Shown here: piece after piece, positions 3,756-20,724 of the stretch
Numbering within the stretch: the stretch's first letter is position 1
Layout of the letters: the number at the start of each line of letters is the position of its first letter
From: Providencia alcalifaciens
Lineage (GTDB): Bacteria; Pseudomonadota; Gammaproteobacteria; Enterobacterales; Enterobacteriaceae
NCBI RefSeq assembly: GCF_020271745.1
Contig: NZ_CP084296.1
Coordinates: forward strand, 2,976,001-3,040,000
Length of the DNA: 64,000 nt
Reading direction: 5' to 3'
The notes under the pieces: model-generated
Told to the model about the DNA's origin: nothing
The model's database searches: none
The model's input: the letters and a program-made list of their open reading frames with translations, nothing else
Position numbers and translations under genes: made by a program

Positions 3756-5824
3756 GTTCACTGCCGTACAGGCAGCTTAGAAAAATATGATAGCCGCAAA
3801 CTTACCATCGAATTTGTTCACTGCCGTACAGGCAGCTTAGAAAACAATCACGGTGAGAAAAGAAGGTGAATTTTTGTTCACTGCCGTACAGGCAGCTTAG
3901 AAAATTTGGAAAAAAATCCGCAAAGTGGAATTTTAGTTCACTGCCGTACAGGCAGCTTAGAAATTCTTACCGCTTATTTCTTTTAGCCAAATAGCGTTCA
4001 CTGCCGTACAGGCAGCTTAGAAATAGGTGATATTGAACACCATTGTATTTTATATGTTCACTGCCGTACAGGCAGCTTAGAAAACACTGGGAAAGTACGA
4101 TATTCAGTAGTGTAGGTTCACTGCCGTACAGGCAGCTTAGAAAAAAAAACTCACTTGCTTTAGCAACGTAAGCTTGTTCACTGCCGTACAGGCAGCTTAG
4201 AAATCTGGCTTCGGTGTCGGTAAATTTGCGAGGTTGTTCACTGCCGTACAGGCAGCTTAGAAAACGTTGGCGGTTTAAATCACCAAAGTTGAAATGTTCA
4301 CTGCCGTACAGGCAGCTTAGAAATTTTTCAGGGGTTAGTAGCAGACAGATAGAGAGTTCACTGCCGTACAGGCAGCTTAGAAATAAGCGGTATGGCGTTG
4401 CCGTCATGCCTACAAGTTCACTGCCGTACAGGCAGCTTAGAAAAGCGGAAGCTACCGCAGATGCTATCGGTGAAAGTTCACTGCCGTACAGGCAGCTTAG
4501 AAAGGCCAATTGCGCGTTGACTTGCGCCATCTTGTTGTTCACTGCCGTACAGGCAGCTTAGAAAACTAATATCTTAACTGCATACTCACGCTCGACGTTC
4601 ACTGCCGTACAGGCAGCTTAGAAAATAGCAGGCAACAAGTTCACAATTGGTCATGAGTTCACTGCCGTACAGGCAGCTTAGAAAAACCTGGTCTGCGCTA
4701 GCTGCATAAAAATAGCGTTCACTGCCGTACAGGCAGCTTAGAAATATAACGCGCAATTTTTGCACTTTGCATGAGCGTTCACTGCCGTACAGGCAGCTTA
4801 GAAAAGATTGAACCCCGCCATGCGTATGACTTTCAAGTTCACTGCCGTACAGGCAGCTTAGAAAATTAGCTGGCGTAACTGTGGCTTACGGCTAAAGTTC
4901 ACTGCCGTACAGGCAGCTTAGAAATATATGCGAGGCGGTGAATCGCTGCTGGGTAGGTTCACTGCCGTACAGGCAGCTTAGAAATCCAGCATAGCGTTAT
5001 GGCGATTATTGGCGTTGTTCACTGCCGTACAGGCAGCTTAGAAAGTGGTAACGTCAAATTTAAATGAGCCGACACTGTTCACTGCCGTACAGGCAGCTTA
5101 GAAAGGAAGAGACAACAGTAAAATTAACTGCCGATGGTTCACTGCCGTACAGGCAGCTTAGAAAATGGGGACTCTTTCTCTCCTCAATCACACGTTGTTC
5201 ACTGCCGTACAGGCAGCTTAGAAAATGTTATCCATGTAGATATAACTTTGCGTATCGTTCACTGCCGTACAGGCAGCTTAGAAAACACCGTATACACAGT
5301 GCTATGCACTACCACAGTTCACTGCCGTACAGGCAGCTTAGAAATAGAAGATTATTCTATAAAGCTATGTTAACTGGTTCACTGCCGTACAGGCAGCTTA
5401 GAAATCTATCATGGTTAGCGCTAATTCAGTTTTACCGTTCACTGCCGTACAGGCAGCTTAGAAATTCTCACCATCTCTATTGATTCCCATCCTCCCGTTC
5501 ACTGCCGTACAGGCAGCTTAGAAATGTAGGTCGCATTGCAGTAGCTAACCTTTTTGGTTCACTGCCGTACAGGCAGCTTAGAAATAGTTGATACGTGTAT
5601 AATCACGCGCCTGTTTGTTCACTGCCGTACAGGCAGCTTAGAAAATGTGTGGTGCAAAAACTGAAATAACCGATTTGTTCACTGCCGTACAGGCAGCTTA
5701 GAAAGTTGCAAAGTCTCCTATGACCTACCGGCAAATGTTCACTGCCGTACAGGCAGCTTAGAAAAATGAGTTTTTACGCAAAACCGCCAAGAATGTGTTC
5801 ACTGCCATACTGGCAGCCTAGTTT
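3756..5824 (+). CRISPR. CRISPR array 1, type I-F, 35 repeats / 34 spacers
   Basis: The 28-base repeats start at 3756 and recur every 60 bases with 32-base spacers, except spacer 13 (4504-4536), which is 33 bases. Each repeat begins GTTCACTGCC, has loop GTACA and ends GGCAGCTTAGAAA. CTGCC/GGCAG forms the 5-bp Cas6f hairpin, and the last 8 bases would be the crRNA 5' handle. All repeats look identical except the last (5797-5824), whose loop is ATACT and whose end is CCTAGTTT, as expected for the oldest, trailer-end repeat. Transcription is therefore rightward from the leader. The fixed 60-base period keeps frame, producing long false open frames in several phases. Confidence 0.99.
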
Positions 5825-5825
5825 T

Positions 5826-12300: not shown

Positions 12301-13253
12301 GTTCAACTTACATTCTTAAGCTACCCCACTTAAAAATTCATAATGCAAATGCGCTATCCAGCCCTTATACCATTGGTTTTCCAGCGATGACGGCATGGTT
12401 AGGCTTTATGCATGCCTTAGAACGTAAACTTCGTGAAGATGGAACACTAAATATTGTGTTGGATTCGGTGGCAGTAATTAGCCATGACTGTAATTTGCAA
12501 ACGTATCGTGGAGCCAATGACTATGTGAGCTCCATCATTGGTACTGCGAATCCACTCAATAATGATGGTAGCCGTTCAGCATTTATCGAAGAAGCACGCT
12601 GCCATCTCGATGTTTCACTATTAATCCAGTATGTCATTAAGAATGATGAATTAGAGCCACTGTCTGAATATTCACCTATTTTAGAAACTATTCATAATCA
12701 AGTCATGACAATGAAACTCGCTGGGGGTGACATTCTTTCTTTGGGTAAACCTACAGTTCATATTATTCCAGAAGTCGATGAGAATGGGCTATCCCGACGT
12801 CAACTACTCAATAGTGTGATGCCGGGTTATGCTTTGATTGAGCGTCGAGACTTAATGATATCAGCGATGGAAGAGGGGCAAGATGCGATGGATGCCTTGC
12901 TCGATTATGTGGTAGTAGAAAATCATTGTGTTGAAAAAATATCCGAGGATGACAGTGAGCGTGAGAAAAAAGCGCAGTTTGAGTGGCGTTCTCAACGAAA
13001 AACATCCGGTTGGATTGTGCCTATCGCGACAGGTTATCAAGGTATTTCGCCGTTAGGGCAGGCTAAAAACCAACGAGACCCAGATACACCCCACCGTTTT
13101 TCTGAAAGTGTCGTGACGCTCGGGGAGTTCATTCTGGCTAACCGAATTAACGATATTTATGAAATTTTATGGGGATTTGATTTTATTGAATCCCAAAACC
13201 TTTATCTATGCCAACAACTGGTATCAAATTTTTTATCTGCGGAGAGTAAATAA
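12297..13253 (+). CDS. csy2: Csy2 (Cas5f) subunit of the I-F surveillance complex
   Basis: Csy2 forms a heterodimer with Csy1 that caps the crRNA 5' handle. The 318-residue product opens with the RAMP-like strand YILKLPHLKIHNANALSSPYT and the segment TIGFPAMTAWLGFMHALER, typical of Cas5f. It overlaps csy1 by four bases at its start and csy3 by one base at its stop (TAATG), indicating tight coupling and stoichiometric production. Confidence 0.94.
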   Translation: MSSTYILKLPHLKIHNANALSSPYTIGFPAMTAWLGFMHALERKLREDGTLNIVLDSVAVISHDCNLQTYRGANDYVSSIIGTANPLNNDGSRSAFIEEARCHLDVSLLIQYVIKNDELEPLSEYSPILETIHNQVMTMKLAGGDILSLGKPTVHIIPEVDENGLSRRQLLNSVMPGYALIERRDLMISAMEEGQDAMDALLDYVVVENHCVEKISEDDSEREKKAQFEWRSQRKTSGWIVPIATGYQGISPLGQAKNQRDPDTPHRFSESVVTLGEFILANRINDIYEILWGFDFIESQNLYLCQQLVSNFLSAESK

Positions 13254-14283: not shown

Positions 14284-14919
14284 ATGAATTACTATCAAGA
14301 GGTCACTTTATTGCCAGATTCAACGGTACCATTAGATTTTCTGTGGCAAAAGGTTTATCAGCAAATCCATATTGCGCTGGTGGACAATAAAACAGGCCAA
14401 GGGAACAGTGCGGTCGCGGTTGCATTTCCTGAATATGGTAGCCCTGGGTTTCGATTAGGCAAAAAGGTACGTTTGATCGCCAAAGACTCTACGGCATTAG
14501 CGGCGTTAGATTTGGCTAAATGGCTTTCAAGGCTATCTGATTATGTGCATATAAAGTCAATACAAGCGGTACCTGAAAATGCTCGCCCAGTGAGTTATAT
14601 TCGTCGGCAAGTTAAAGGTGCGTCGCGTATTGAGTCGGATATGCAGAAAAAAGCAGCGCGTTGGGCAAAAAAATCGGGGCAATCCTTGGCTCAGTGTTTA
14701 GCGGATCTCGAAAAATCTCGCCCAATTAAACAAAGCCGATTGCCATTTATCTGGGTGGAAAGCCAACACAGTAAGAGTGAGCAACGAGGTAGCCGACCCT
14801 TCCCGTTATTTATTCAATGTATCGAAGTAGAGAAAGCGGTTGAAGGTATCTTTAATTGTTATGGACTCAGTCAGATTAACAATGATGGTCAAATATTCGC
14901 AACTGTTCCTCATTTTTGA
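14284..14919 (+). CDS. cas6f: Cas6f (Csy4), pre-crRNA processing endoribonuclease
   Basis: Cas6f cleaves at the base of each repeat hairpin and stays bound to the crRNA 3' stem. The 211-residue protein has a His at position 29 (YQQIHIALV), the catalytic position of the Pseudomonas enzyme, and an arginine/lysine-rich helix (VSYIRRQVKGASRIESDMQK) of the kind that reads the repeat stem. It is modestly longer than the 187-residue reference. The gene lies 8 bases after csy3 with GGTGG before ATG. Its last codons overlap the first bases of the array 2 leader motif (14915 on), so cas transcription can run straight into array 2. Confidence 0.94.
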   Translation: MNYYQEVTLLPDSTVPLDFLWQKVYQQIHIALVDNKTGQGNSAVAVAFPEYGSPGFRLGKKVRLIAKDSTALAALDLAKWLSRLSDYVHIKSIQAVPENARPVSYIRRQVKGASRIESDMQKKAARWAKKSGQSLAQCLADLEKSRPIKQSRLPFIWVESQHSKSEQRGSRPFPLFIQCIEVEKAVEGIFNCYGLSQINNDGQIFATVPHF

Positions 14920-15050: not shown

Positions 15051-18000
15051 GTTCACTGCCACATAGGCAGCTTAGAAAAGTTTAAAGCCATCAATTAAGC
15101 GAGGTGTTGAGTTCACTGCCACATAGGCAGCTTAGAAATAGAAGAAGCAACCAACGTAATCGCACCGCTAGTTCACTGCCACATAGGCAGCTTAGAAATA
15201 TAACGCGTAATTTTTGCACATTACATGAGCGTTCACTGCCACATAGGCAGCTTAGAAAGTGATAAAGCCGGAGGATGTCAATGTTGATATGTTCACTGCC
15301 ACATAGGCAGCTTAGAAATACAGACTTTAACGCGCGTGAAATCACACCATGTTCACTGCCACATAGGCAGCTTAGAAATAGCGAATCGGTAGAGCAAATC
15401 ACATTTTTTAGTTCACTGCCACATAGGCAGCTTAGAAATTCTACAAAAGTGATAACCCATTGCTGACTATGTTCACTGCCACATAGGCAGCTTAGAAATC
15501 TACGAAAGTGATAACCCATTGCTGACTATGTTCACTGCCACATAGGCAGCTTAGAAAATATTGTACGTGTTGCCATCACTAGCAAAACAGTTCACTGCCA
15601 CATAGGCAGCTTAGAAAGACCTGGTCCGAGCTAGCTGCGTAAAAATAGCGTTCACTGCCACATAGGCAGCTTAGAAAACAGTTGAGCACGCTTATGAGAT
15701 AGCATCATCGTTCACTGCCACATAGGCAGCTTAGAAATTGATATTGTTGAATAGCCCAGTCTGCCATCCCGTTCACTGCCACATAGGCAGCTTAGAAATT
15801 TTTCAGGGGTCAGTAGCAGACAGATAGAGAGTTCACTGCCACATAGGCAGCTTAGAAAATCCAGTCCACATCAGATTGAAACGCGGCTACGTTCACTGCC
15901 ACATAGGCAGCTTAGAAAGATAACGGTTTTATTCCCGTTGGCTAGCTTAAGTTCACTGCCACATAGGCAGCTTAGAAAGAATTGCTCAACTTTTGCAGTC
16001 TCAGTGACAGGTTCACTGCCACATAGGCAGCTTAGAAAACACATGAGACTTGACGCTTACTTATGCAAGCGTTCACTGCCACATAGGCAGCTTAGAAATA
16101 TATGCGAGGCGGTGAATCGCTGCTGGGTAGGTTCACTGCCACATAGGCAGCTTAGAAAAGTCGCGCCGATGGTTAATTGCCCGATATCACGTTCACTGCC
16201 ACATAGGCAGCTTAGAAACTAACTTGTCTGTTATTCGGGTTTACAACTTGGTTCACTGCCACATAGGCAGCTTAGAAAGCGCTCAGAACTTGCTCCAAAC
16301 TGATATTTTTGTTCACTGCCACATAGGCAGCTTAGAAAGCGATAAAACCGGAGGATGTCAATGTTGATATGTTCACTGCCACATAGGCAGCTTAGAAACA
16401 GCTAAGAATCCATTGCGCACGAACTCTTTAGTTCACTGCCACATAGGCAGCTTAGAAAAGTCGGAATCGTTGGACAGGGTTGGTAAAGCTGTTCACTGCC
16501 ACATAGGCAGCTTAGAAAATACCACTGCTGGACTTCTGCTGCTTCATCATGTTCACTGCCACATAGGCAGCTTAGAAAGTCTTTCACGCTTATTGCGCCG
16601 TTCAAGATAGGTTCACTGCCACATAGGCAGCTTAGAAATCTAGCTAGTTTCTCGTCACCTTCTACGAAAGGTTCACTGCCACATAGGCAGCTTAGAAATT
16701 CCATGTCATCGCGGCCATAATCGAAAATATGTTCACTGCCACATAGGCAGCTTAGAAAAACTGCGGGGATTGCCGAACCAATCATGCTTGGTTCACTGCC
16801 ACATAGGCAGCTTAGAAAAAATCGGCAGGGTTAACTGGTAATAAGCGATTGTTCACTGCCACATAGGCAGCTTAGAAATGCTGACCGTTAACATTCTGCT
16901 TAATCATAATGTTCACTGCCACATAGGCAGCTTAGAAATAACGACAAGATAAGGCGCTTTCGTTGTAACGGTTCACTGCCACATAGGCAGCTTAGAAAAG
17001 CGAGTAGATAGTGCGGAGCTCATGTAATGTGTTCACTGCCACATAGGCAGCTTAGAAAATGCTAGAAGCTCAGGGGCTGGTTAAAAAAGAGTTCACTGCC
17101 ACATAGGCAGCTTAGAAAGATACCAGACTTCCGAACGCTTCGAAGGTTTCGTTCACTGCCACATAGGCAGCTTAGAAACGTTCGATGTTGAGTTGGTTCG
17201 CATTCCAAGCGTTCACTGCCACATAGGCAGCTTAGAAAATTTAGTTGGAGTGTAAGCCATTATTTAGCCCGTTCACTGCCACATAGGCAGCTTAGAAACA
17301 GGTAGCAACCCACTTCACGCTATCGTTTACGTTCACTGCCACATAGGCAGCTTAGAAAACACCGAAGCCAGAAGCTGATGCGTCTCTATAGTTCACTGCC
17401 ACATAGGCAGCTTAGAAATGCCTATTGCAACAGCGGCAACCGCCCCGACCGTTCACTGCCACATAGGCAGCTTAGAAAATTAACTGGCGTAGTTGTGGCT
17501 TGCGACTAAAGTTCACTGCCACATAGGCAGCTTAGAAAAAAACCAAAAAACAAAGCGGCGGCTACTCCAGGTTCACTGCCACATAGGCAGCTTAGAAAAC
17601 ATTTCACGCTTTACTCGTTATCTTTTTATTGTTCACTGCCACATAGGCAGCTTAGAAATACTAACGATGGATCGGAGAGTAGCATTTGAAGTTCACTGCC
17701 ACATAGGCAGCTTAGAAAAGAGTCATCGGTATAGAAACCAACACTATAAAGTTCACTGCCACATAGGCAGCTTAGAAACAATTATCTCGACTCCTGCAAG
17801 TTTAGATGCAGTTCACTGCCACATAGGCAGCTTAGAAACGACTAACAAATAACTTGATGGTGATAGGCTCGTTCACTGCCACATAGGCAGCTTAGAAAAA
17901 TCAGTTAATGCTTTTTCGTATTCTTCTTCAGTTCACTGCCACATAGGCAGCTTAGAAAACTTTCGGCCTCTCTTGCTGTCGTTGGTTGCCGTTCACTGCC

Positions 18001-18860
18001 ACATAGGCAGCTTAGAAACATCGGATGATTGATGATCCACTTGCTGTTTTTGTTCACTGCCACATAGGCAGCTTAGAAATAGACATTGGCACGACGTGAG
18101 ACTTCCCATTCTGTTCACTGCCACATAGGCAGCTTAGAAACATTTGAGAATTGTTTTGTTCGCCACTTTACAGTTCACTGCCACATAGGCAGCTTAGAAA
18201 TGCTGAGCCTCCATTAACCATTGCTGCTCCTCGTTCACTGCCACATAGGCAGCTTAGAAATGTTAACGGCTCATTCATTTTTCAGTCCTGTTGTTCACTG
18301 CCACATAGGCAGCTTAGAAACAGCTTCTTAGCTGCGCATGTCTCAACTATTCGTTCACTGCCACATAGGCAGCTTAGAAATGTCTCTACGTTAACGCCAA
18401 CTCTATGACAAAGTTCACTGCCACATAGGCAGCTTAGAAACAAGGGCGGGGACTATATATCAATAACTCCAGGTTCACTGCCACATAGGCAGCTTAGAAA
18501 AGTAACAGCCACAAAAGCACGTAAAGCGGATAGTTCACTGCCACACAGGCAGCTTAGAAAAGCTAGAAATAAAGGGGCTAATTCCATCATTAGTTCACTG
18601 CCACACAGGCAGCTTAGAAAAGAAGCACTCGACAAGCTGAACACTGACGAAAGTTCACTGCCACACAGGCAGCTTAGAAACGGAGAAGTGGGTTTTAATA
18701 TCGATGCGAAAAGTTCACTGCCACACAGGCAGCTTAGAAATCTCGCATCAAATAATCGATGTCTGCGGTCCAGTTCACTGCCACACAGGCAGCTTAGAAA
18801 ATTAAAAGGGATGCTTCATGAACCAATCAACCGTTCACTGCCACACAGGCAGCATATAGG
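15051..18860 (+). CRISPR. CRISPR array 2, type I-F, 64 repeats / 63 spacers in the main block
   Basis: Repeats start at 15051. They share the GTTCACTGCC start and GGCAGCTTAGAAA end of array 1, but the hairpin loop is ACATA rather than GTACA. Repeats 1-58 have ACATA; repeats from 18533 on have ACACA. Spacers are 32 bases except spacer 8 (15499-15529, 31) and spacers 12, 50 and 51 (33 each). The last repeat (18833) matches only its first 21 bases (to 18853) and then runs into a toxin-antitoxin cassette; the array resumes at 19543. Leader at the left and degenerate repeats at the right show rightward transcription. Confidence 0.99.
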
Positions 18861-18888
18861 AAATAACGTCGGATAATGGAATGACAGA

Positions 18889-18925
18889 ATTGCACTAGAA
18901 TGCAATTTGCATCATAATGCAATTT
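18889..18925 (+). promoter_or_regulatory. Putative operator/promoter region of the toxin-antitoxin pair
   Basis: AATGCAATTT occurs twice (18899-18908 and 18916-18925), 17 bases apart. The first copy lies in the near-palindrome ATGCAATTTGCAT (18900-18912). It is placed immediately ahead of the toxin ribosome site, as expected for autorepression by the HTH antitoxin. Confidence 0.5.
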
Positions 18926-18938
18926 ATTGAGAGGGAAC

Positions 18939-19265
18939 ATGTATACAGTAAAATATCATTTAGAAGCTGAAAAAGAAGCGAATGCGTTACCTCTAAAAAT
19001 AAAAGTAAAGTATGACCGAATAATACAACAGCTTGAAAAATTCCCAAATTATTTACGGGAACCAGATACAAAGTCATTAGGAAATGGACTTTTTGAACTT
19101 AGAACAATGGGAAGTGAAATTGTCAGAGGTTTGTGGGTATACCATAAAGGCAACACAATCATTATCTTGAGGGTTTTTATCAAAAAATCGCAGAAAACCC
19201 CAAAGTCAGAGTTTGATTTAGCTAAAAAACGTTTGCAGGAGTTATTAAATGATGAAAACGCATAA
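18939..19265 (+). CDS. RelE/HigB-superfamily toxin (type II TA)
   Basis: This protein resembles the phage-derived Gp49-like/HigB branch of RelE toxins, which typically cleave mRNA at the ribosome. ATG 18939 is chosen because GAGAGGGA lies just ahead; it gives 108 residues. Family-like features are the basic helix region (LPLKIKVKYDRIIQQLEKFP), the strand block GLFELRTMGSEIVRGLWVY and the end VFIKKSQKTPKSEFDLAKKR. The antitoxin gene overlaps its 3' end, in the toxin-first order common for higBA. The pair sits inside CRISPR array 2. Confidence 0.85.
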   Translation: MYTVKYHLEAEKEANALPLKIKVKYDRIIQQLEKFPNYLREPDTKSLGNGLFELRTMGSEIVRGLWVYHKGNTIIILRVFIKKSQKTPKSEFDLAKKRLQELLNDENA

Positions 19266-19524
19266 GGAATTACACACGGAATGGATGAAAGACCCGGAGT
19301 ATCAGGCTGCATATGAAGAAGAAATTAGAACTGAAAAATTACAAGCAATGCTTAAAGAATGGCGTGAGTCTGCCGGTTTGACTAAGAGACAATTGGCCGA
19401 AATCATTGGTGTAAATCCATCAACGATTACAAGATTAGAAAGTAACGTAAACAACGCTAGCATCAAAAGTATTGCAAGGTATGCTGCGGCATGTGGAATT
19501 AAAAACCCAGTTATTGCATTGTAA
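19249..19524 (+). CDS. XRE/HTH antitoxin partner of the RelE/HigB-type toxin
   Basis: The 91-residue protein has an N-terminal helical segment (EWMKDPEYQAAYEEE) and a Cro/C1 helix-turn-helix around residues 45-65 (LTKRQLAEIIGVNPSTITRL), with C-terminal similarity to HigA-type antitoxins. It overlaps the toxin gene by 17 bases, so translation is probably coupled. It likely binds the toxin and represses the repeats at 18899-18925. The start could be the second ATG at 19252. Confidence 0.85.
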   Translation: MMKTHKELHTEWMKDPEYQAAYEEEIRTEKLQAMLKEWRESAGLTKRQLAEIIGVNPSTITRLESNVNNASIKSIARYAAACGIKNPVIAL

Positions 19525-19542
19525 TTTTAATAAAATAGAGAT

Positions 19543-19624
19543 TGCCACACAGGCAGCTTAGAAATCGGAGTCCTGTCAATAACTGTAGATCACGGAGTTC
19601 ACTGCCACACAGGCAGCTAAAATA
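19543..19624 (+). CRISPR. Displaced end of CRISPR array 2 (partial repeat, one spacer, terminal repeat)
   Basis: Bases 7-28 of the ACACA-type repeat occupy 19543-19564. A 32-base spacer follows (19565-19596), then a repeat at 19597-19624 whose last bases are degenerate (GCTAAAATA). The spacer has the canonical length and the repeats the old array 2 loop, so this was contiguous with the main array before the toxin-antitoxin insertion. Confidence 0.85.
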
Positions 19625-19707: not shown

Positions 19708-19782
19708 AGCCACTGTCATTAGATAGCTTAGAAATGAACCATAGAATGGGTCTAGTTTACTGCCATGTAGGCAGCTATAACA
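19708..19782 (+). repeat. Decayed CRISPR repeats beyond array 2
   Basis: CACTGTCATTA followed by GATAGCTTAGAAA (19711-19734) and GTTTACTGCC followed by ATGTAGGCAGC (19755-19775) are recognisable but mutated repeats, now only 20 bases apart. TAGAATGGGT occurs at 19742-19751 and again near 19800, suggesting further rearranged array material. The stretch 19525-19944 holds no gene; apart from these relics nothing else is seen. Confidence 0.65.
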
Positions 19783-19944
19783 AAGTCAGACCTGAACAAT
19801 AGAATGGGTTTATTACTGAATAGTTATCGGATGATAAAAATCATATGCCAACTGACTGATGGGAAAATGTAATGCATTACGAAATAATCATTAAGATCTT
19901 CTGCGTGACCTTAATCCTCAAAGTGAAAAATGTATCAACCACCT

Positions 19945-20724
19945 TCAAACCCACAAATTAAACATCAACGATAACTGCTCAAACGCTTGATGGATCAGGC
20001 GTTCTGTATAGCGCGGTAGGATAGAAATAATCAGCCCCAACATACTGATACCGATAGTTAATGTGAGGGGAAAACCCACCACAAACACGGATAACTGTGG
20101 CGTCATTCGATTTAGAATGCCGAGGGACAAGTTTAGAATTAAAAACAGCGTAATAAACGGTAGAGCGAGCATTAACCCATTAATAAAAATAGTATTAGCA
20201 AATTGTAAAAACACCCAAAAACCATCACGGTGCAGGGGCGTGGTTTGGATGGGGATCAGCTCAAACGAGTTCGTCAGAATATAAATCAGCCATAAATGCC
20301 CATCGAATGACAAAAACAGCAGTAACGTGATTAAATTTAAAATTCGCCCAAGAATTGGCATGTTGGGCCCGCCAGTTGGGTCAAAAAACGTTGCAAATGA
20401 TAATCCCATTTGTAAACCAATCACTTCCCCAGCGTGGCGTACCGCAGCAAAGGCCATCTGCATGGTCAATCCCATGGCAGCACCAATCACAATCTGTTGC
20501 ACACAGACCCATAAGCCCATAGCCGAAAATAGCGGAACAGTGGCGATAGGCAACTGAGGGGAAATGACTAATACGGTAAAAAAGGCGAGGGCAATGCGAA
20601 CCTTACTGATAGCCTGTTTTTCATTAAAAAATGGCGCTGTTCCAAACAACGCTAAAAGGCGTACAAAAGGATAAAAACCTTGGCTTAGCCAAAGGGTGAG
20701 CGTCTCACTGGTGATGGTTAACAT
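19945..20724 (-). CDS. fliR: FliR, flagellar export gate protein
   Basis: FliR forms, with FliP and FliQ, the inner-membrane export gate of the flagellar type III apparatus. The 259-residue, strongly hydrophobic protein has several predicted membrane helices and family blocks such as LQMGLSFATFFDPTGGPNMP and the C-terminal ILPRYTERLI. It is the last gene of fliLMNOPQR, 2 bases after fliQ. Downstream lie CRISPR relics rather than the usual flagellar or regulatory neighbours. Confidence 0.95.
   Translation of the reverse strand: MLTITSETLTLWLSQGFYPFVRLLALFGTAPFFNEKQAISKVRIALAFFTVLVISPQLPIATVPLFSAMGLWVCVQQIVIGAAMGLTMQMAFAAVRHAGEVIGLQMGLSFATFFDPTGGPNMPILGRILNLITLLLFLSFDGHLWLIYILTNSFELIPIQTTPLHRDGFWVFLQFANTIFINGLMLALPFITLFLILNLSLGILNRMTPQLSVFVVGFPLTLTIGISMLGLIISILPRYTERLIHQAFEQLSLMFNLWV

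Follow-up and report, generated by a model that had tools for sequence, protein, structure and literature searches.

A plasmid-type toxin–antitoxin operon, probably of long standing, between two repeats of a type I-F CRISPR array in Providencia, and a CreTA-like module beside it

The window analysed here, a 64-kb stretch (64,000 nucleotides) of contig NZ_CP084296.1 of Providencia alcalifaciens, comes from a complete genome of 4.2 Mb (G000). It carries a toxin–antitoxin (TA) operon inside an array of clustered regularly interspaced short palindromic repeats (CRISPR), array 2, which belongs to a type I-F CRISPR system (csy3 at 13253, csy4 at 14284). We favour, with a probability of about two in three, the reading that an old plasmid-type HigBA-like operon lies between two repeats of array 2, has been inherited with the locus and acts as an addiction module. 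The TA operon has probably been in the array since before several species split. An earlier note on this DNA had described a cassette inserted into one repeat, with the same 15 bases on both sides like a target duplication. That observation is right, whereas a recent insertion and a target duplication are unsupported. The surroundings of the insert hold more than this original finding, and the CreTA-like module next to it is the larger find.

The operon and its two half-repeats

The array and the insert comprise the following features (window positions, strand).

15051..18832, +, type I-F CRISPR array 2, main part, with repeats GTTCACTGCCACA[T/C]AGGCAGCTTAGAAA
18833..18853, +, left half-repeat (bases 1-21), retaining the hairpin with the Csy4 cut site; decay in bases 22-28
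18888..18924, +, putative operator of the antitoxin, an inverted repeat (AATTGCACTAGAATGCAA/TTGCATCATAATGCAATT) preceding the toxin gene
18939..19265, +, toxin gene, HigB/Gp49-like, 108 amino acids (PF05973)
19249..19524, +, antitoxin gene, XRE-type helix-turn-helix (HTH), 91 amino acids, overlapping the toxin gene (PF01381)
19543..19564, +, right half-repeat (bases 7-28), retaining the hairpin and the 8-nt 5' handle; decay in bases 1-6
19565..19596, +, distal spacer, 32 bases, matching what we take to be a P2-like prophage replication gene A
19597..19618, +, last repeat, bases 1-22, by comparison with the consensus

Compared with the consensus of the distal repeats, the repeat at 18833 matches at 6/6 of bases 1-6, 15/15 of bases 7-21 and only 3/7 of bases 22-28; for the right half-repeat the values are 1/6, 15/15 and 7/7, respectively. 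The right half-repeat stands in register, exactly 60 bases ahead of the last repeat at 19597, and this register together with the 32-base spacer excludes a chance resemblance to a repeat. Both half-repeats fold into the repeat hairpin (0 and 1 of 200 shuffles were equally stable). The insert between them (18854-19542, 689 bases) carries the RelE/HigB-HTH pair that the earlier note had recognised, and the array resumes at 19543 as described there, with the addition that the further repeat is itself decayed past base 22 (4/7 matches over bases 22-28). The last five full repeats of array 2 (18533-18773) have C at base 14. Both sides of the insert carry the same distal repeat variant and were probably once contiguous, which agrees with the view that a TA cassette splits array 2.

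Processing of type I-F CRISPR RNA (crRNA) by Csy4 needs the repeat hairpin and the cut site. The 15 bases common to both half-repeats, TGCCACACAGGCAGC, are what this processing requires on either side, so that the cassette occupies the place of a spacer. They are found at eight places in the window, all of them distal repeats, and thus represent the repeat core and no private signature of the joint. The overlap of 15 bases is exact, as had been noted, but no target duplication is needed to account for it: judging from the sequences, the likeliest course is that two neighbouring repeats decayed from opposite ends and that each retained the Csy4 hairpin with its cut site. Such decay has parallels in terminal repeats and in the degenerate psi-repeats of the neighbouring module. 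Several terminal repeats lose bases 22-28 first, and the left half-repeat is alike; the right half-repeat resembles psiR1 of the neighbouring module, in which the front is lost and the hairpin and handle are kept. Over 14 run-end repeats, a list that includes some undecayed repeats, some that are not true ends and the 18833 repeat itself, the matched fraction is 0.96 for bases 1-6, 0.90 for bases 7-21 and 0.78 for bases 22-28.

The operon is of the toxin-first type. Its first product belongs to PF05973 (Gp49; E 2e-22, 79.5 bits against a cut-off of 23.9), and the HigB chain 6af3 (E 5.8e-06) is its sole solved relative at E 0.01. The antitoxin is an HTH_3 protein (E 4.5e-13). With the NCBIfam HigA/HigB models, the toxin has no match up to E 0.01, and all 12 antitoxin matches fall under the cut-offs. 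Among the listed open reading frames (ORFs) of the insert, no other recognisable gene and no transposase was found, in line with the earlier statement that a mobility gene is lacking. The cassette is single-copy in the 4.2 Mb genome. The inverted repeat ahead of the toxin gene spans 18 bases with 83% complementarity, and similar motifs can be made out by eye in the related genome G016 and in a plasmid copy of the operon. A scan for promoters and terminators near the operon gave results at about the level of shuffled sequence, with six promoter-like sites (4.2 in shuffles) and a single terminator-like site (1.0 in shuffles), which lies on the minus strand.

In each of six congeners (L010, L012-L016), a single long ORF matches the distal spacer at 31/32 bases with a CC protospacer-adjacent motif (PAM); we presume this ORF to encode P2-like gpA. 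The match in a seventh congener (L017) covers 28/32 bases and lacks the CC. Of 50,697 phage records, 152 have partial matches, all of which cover less than 80% of the spacer, and the 12 matches shown are annotated as replication or gene A protein. The distal spacer is an ordinary one and probably useful. In G006 (L070), the second-last spacer of array 2 looks, by eye, like the complementary strand of the P2-like replication-gene region matched by the window's distal spacer.

Arrays 1 (3756-5825) and 2 (15051-18832) of the window share five pairs of identical or near-identical spacers (27-32 of 32 bases) despite their different repeat variants; the spacers at 4925 and 16099, for instance, are identical. 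Array 2 also contains a near-duplicate pair of its own (15259/16339, 30 of 32).

Relatives of the operon and its age

A search of 24 Providencia genomes recovered the whole operon in G016 and the antitoxin with only the 3' end of the toxin gene in G011. Both copies lie at the same array end before fliR, in the same position and orientation as in G000. The proteins of G016 and G000 are 81% (toxin) and 91% (antitoxin) identical, and DNA identity is 76% for the toxin, 78% for the antitoxin and 79% for fliR. The proportion of synonymous differences (pS) between the two genomes is 0.72-0.77 for the operon against 0.64 for fliR, near saturation, and that of non-synonymous differences (pN) is 0.065 for the antitoxin, 0.108 for the toxin and 0.069 for fliR. 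Both operon genes are intact and, to judge from these substitution patterns, under purifying selection. The CRISPR-located antitoxins share 90-91% of their amino acids with one another, as against 70% with the closest copy found on a plasmid. These three antitoxins form a group (support 78/58) in a tree of 36, inside a 95/93 clade that adds only one Providencia plasmid copy. One gain and one loss of the operon, the latter likely in G005, suffice on a csy3 tree of nine rows; all of the 11 csy3 genes are represented in this tree except the two from G002 and G021, which lay outside the fetched stretches.

The region 3' of the operon points in the same direction. There, G016 has a partial repeat, a 32-base spacer and a full repeat, the same layout as in G000. 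Its partial repeat begins, by eye, at about base 5 and keeps a CTGC/GCAG stem, though array 2 of G016 has CCGCC/GGCGG. The distal spacers of G000 and G016 align above chance, with a score of 4.0 that is equalled in 21 of 5000 shuffles, the best of 63 array-2 spacers reaching 1.5 in the same comparison. Taken together, the insertion is probably old, the operon having been gained once in an ancestor common to G000, G016 and G011 and lost in some lineages. The earlier note had named relatives that share the arrangement, with flanks diverging separately, as the finding that would speak against it; this is in part what we see, as G016 has the same operon with flanks decayed differently. No conspecific genome with an empty site at 18833 was found.

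Several observations weigh against a single old gain. The tree support just given for the monophyly of the CRISPR-located antitoxins is weak, and the fliR tree (22 rows) needs three operon changes, forced by its starred branches. The operon is missing between array 2 and fliR in 8 of the 11 csy3-positive Providencia genomes, G000 being counted among the 11. Between G011 and G016, the pS of the antitoxin (0.12) is lower than that of fliR (0.34), hinting at exchange between these two. Finally, the relatedness of the distal spacers of G000 and G016 is modest, and G016 has no clear left half-repeat.

Plasmids often carry related operons: 1239 of 72,556 plasmid records have one at the DNA level and 3844 at the protein level. 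The nearest plasmid relatives, from Providencia, show 72% DNA identity; a related operon lies on plasmid NZ_CP072454.1 of Providencia sp. R33, with the same coordinates on a G007 contig. At the DNA level, the cassette has no match among the 50,697 phage records. The 29 loci checked in other genera (from 60 matching genomes of 392, our own genome included) have no type I-F- or I-E-like repeat within about 1.5 kb of the operon, and one of them (L084) contains a single 20-mer present three or more times. Nor was a type I-F-like repeat found at four loci from the genome contig scan or at the plasmid locus L004. The earlier suggestion that the cassette came as cargo of invading DNA fits these plasmid relatives, but the arrival was probably long ago.

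Independent arrivals of related plasmid operons in the lineages of G000 and of G016/G011, or an exchange of the whole locus between species, represent an unlikely course of events, although the strongest of the alternatives. The three changes on the fliR tree, the many csy3-positive genomes without the operon and the frequency of related operons on enteric plasmids would all fit it. Against it stand the high mutual identity of the CRISPR-located antitoxins and their grouping, as well as the arrangement of partial repeat, spacer and repeat that G000 and G016 have in common.

A recent insertion of the cassette into one repeat is clearly less probable, and the G016 copy largely refutes it. The exact overlap of the half-repeats would be its 15-base target duplication, but these bases coincide with the processing hairpin, the insert boundaries show no terminal inverted repeats and no transposase ORF is present. 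Moreover, the same operon occupies the same place in G016, whose DNA diverges from that of G000 by 22-24%, with the antitoxin left in G011, and the right partial repeat of G016 keeps ACTGC from base 5 on, so that the overlap was probably longer earlier.

Still more doubtful is an aberrant Cas1-Cas2/3 integration of a fragment of about 690 bases as a giant spacer with duplication of the repeat. The insert does hold a spacer's place between two repeat copies, but it lies at the leader-distal position, where acquisition is not expected, and known prespacers measure about 32 nt, as do the array spacers here (31-33 nt).

That the operon is itself under CRISPR control in the manner of CrePA, repressed by an array guide, is hardly credible: it lies inside an array and the next module along has such a guide, but none of 99 guides (the array spacers, the distal spacer and psiS) has a CC-flanked site starting at 18820-18960 that reaches even 8/10 seed bases, and the palindrome that precedes the toxin gene points to self-regulation. 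As no guide comes near a seed match at its promoter, the HigBA operon is probably self-regulated, and its sequence is probably that of an ordinary autoregulated type II HigBA-like addiction module.

A few further observations deserve mention in their own right. In G011 (L023, about 15860-16160), the antitoxin ORF is retained though the promoter and most of the toxin gene are lost, and the junction runs from inside a spacer into the toxin 3' end. In the csy3-negative G009 (L061) and G015 (L060), an ORF that looks by eye like a HipB-like regulator takes the operon's place between three orphan repeats and fliR, and a short ORF adjoining fliR resembles the first 28 antitoxin residues. Antitoxin-like N-terminal fragments beside fliR in G009, G015, G003 and G022 may be remnants of the operon; they are only 52-67% identical over 27 residues and were not used as evidence. 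Weaker relatives of the antitoxin in G018 and G013 (45-48%) are located elsewhere.

A CreTA-like module beyond the array end

About 90 bases past the end of the array, a second module begins (19713-19961).

19713..19734, +, psiR1, with hairpin CTGTC-ATTA-GATAG and handle CTTAGAAA
19735..19754, +, psiS guide TGAACCATAGAATGGGTCTA, 20 bases, from the guide-target scan
19755..19776, +, psiR2, a degenerate repeat
19791..19812, +, CC PAM and near-copy of the guide (copy from 19793), with mismatches at positions 6 and 18
19872..19961, +, small ORF after the target, 29 amino acids, candidate creT-like toxin

The region has two degenerate repeats flanking a guide and a PAM-flanked partial match to that guide at the predicted toxin promoter, the features by which CreTA is recognised. 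It fits CreTA, and its sequence suggests a small toxin-like gene that the CRISPR effector would keep silent. The target of psiS is the sole CC-flanked match with a perfect seed (1-5 and 7-11) for any of the 99 guides on both strands of the 64 kb. The near-copy overlaps the second hexamer (19800-19805) of a promoter-like site, which is a resemblance to the consensus only, promoter-like sites being at about shuffled level in this region. The hairpin of psiR1 in the window, the only psiR1 folded, does form, but its stability is unremarkable, as 28 of 200 shuffles were equally stable.

Similar guide-target pairs recur near fliR throughout the csy3-positive genomes. A first scan without preference for mismatch positions, over 22 fliR loci (G012 and G014 have no FliR match and are left out of the scans), gave pairs in nine; in G002, where guide and target lie further apart, visual inspection first revealed the pair. 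A wider scan, which prefers mismatches at positions 6 and 12, finds pairs in 10 of the 11 csy3-positive Providencia loci, G021 being the one without. Besides the window, these are L022 (G016), L023 (G011), L067 (G007), L068 (G013), L069 (G005), L070 (G006), L073 (G001), L074 (G002) and L075 (G010). The same scan finds none in the 11 csy3-negative Providencia loci, none in 13 arrays of other genera (20 of 65 csy4-bearing relatives were fetched, seven without a recognisable array) and none in 480 shuffled segments. In G002 (L074), fliR still has an array and the guide-target pair beside it even though csy3 is about 134 kb away from this locus.

Every sixth position of a type I crRNA is flipped out, and mismatches are expected there. 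Over the ten pairs, 17 of the 20 mismatches at positions 1-18 fall at 6, 12 or 18 (binomial p 4e-11, for species that are not independent). Guides agree with their own targets at 15-16 of 17 bases and with those of distant species at as few as three; guides of close relatives cross-match targets well, up to 16/17. The handle CTTAGAAA is present in 10/10 loci, and psi-repeat hairpins are recognisable by eye at every locus, that of G007 having a broken pair. ATG-initiated ORFs of 20-29 codons follow the target in nine of the ten loci (20-26 amino acids in eight of the other nine species), G001 having only a 24-codon TTG ORF. A Shine-Dalgarno-like sequence is clear before most of these ORFs and weaker in G000.

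Proposed mode of action and significance

An operon of the HigBA-like kind carried by enterobacterial plasmids would have become established in array 2, between two repeats close to its leader-distal end. Divergence and trees suggest that this took place in the ancestor of G000, G016 and G011, followed by inheritance with the CRISPR locus and losses in some lineages. By analogy with these protein families, a labile antitoxin would repress the promoter and neutralise an mRNA-cleaving toxin, so that cells losing the segment would be poisoned. The operon divides the array into its main part and a one-spacer mini-array 3' of the TA operon. Both parts probably still yield crRNAs, the half-repeats keeping just what Csy4 needs, and the distal crRNA may derive from read-through transcription of the TA operon. 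In effect, deletion of the array end, CreTA-like module included, would be penalised. The idea, raised earlier, that the cassette protects old spacers may apply to no more than the one distal spacer and the module that follows it.

It is tempting to go one step further and imagine a double addiction lock, in which the TA promoter would also transcribe the mini-array and the CreTA guide, and the cell would be poisoned whether it lost the array end, the TA operon or the Cas effector, the CreTA part being a Providencia family located at the trailer and not among the cas genes. We regard this scheme as speculative and rather unlikely as a whole.

The persistence of a plasmid-type TA operon in a CRISPR array over species-level divergence, as suggested here, would offer a natural case for asking whether addiction modules stabilise immune memory. 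The guide-target pair of ten species, with its mismatches at every sixth position, is sequence-only evidence for a type I-F effector that would repress an endogenous small gene. CRISPR addiction thereby becomes directly testable in a new genus.

Comparison with known systems

Among open-licence papers, our searches turned up no TA operon described in a repeat of a type I-F array and no CreTA described in Providencia. The word Providencia is absent from the main texts of PMC8501985, PMC9458426 and PMC10097628, and the word CreTA from a survey of Providencia defence systems (PMC12935923).

The operon resembles the HigBA operons of plasmids in its toxin-first order, RelE/HigB-type toxin and XRE antitoxin. 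In contrast to them, it is chromosomal, lies inside a CRISPR array and is common to several species. With CrePA, it shares a protein toxin tied to a CRISPR locus. In the CrePA systems reviewed in PMC12737573, the CreP toxin usually carries a KilA-N domain and a crRNA-like guide represses it, whereas the HigB-like toxin here shows no KilA-N domain and no guide with a CC PAM at its promoter.

The neighbouring module is best compared with two CreTA systems, each as described in excerpts of its report. The type I-E CreTA of Citrobacter rodentium has a translated small toxin whose translation is needed for toxicity (PMC12055562). The likeness is one of layout, a small ORF adjoining a crRNA-like guide with a partial PAM-flanked target; unlike the Providencia module, that of C. 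rodentium is of type I-E and lies between cas3 and casA with its guide on the opposite strand. The type I-F CreTA of Acinetobacter is located between cas3 and csy1 (PMC10097628). Here the correspondence extends to the order psiR1-psiS-psiR2, the PAM-flanked partial target and a mini-ORF with a Shine-Dalgarno sequence, whereas the Providencia module is set apart by its position at the trailer end of array 2, its co-directional arrangement, its ORF of 20-29 codons and its seed-type pairing.
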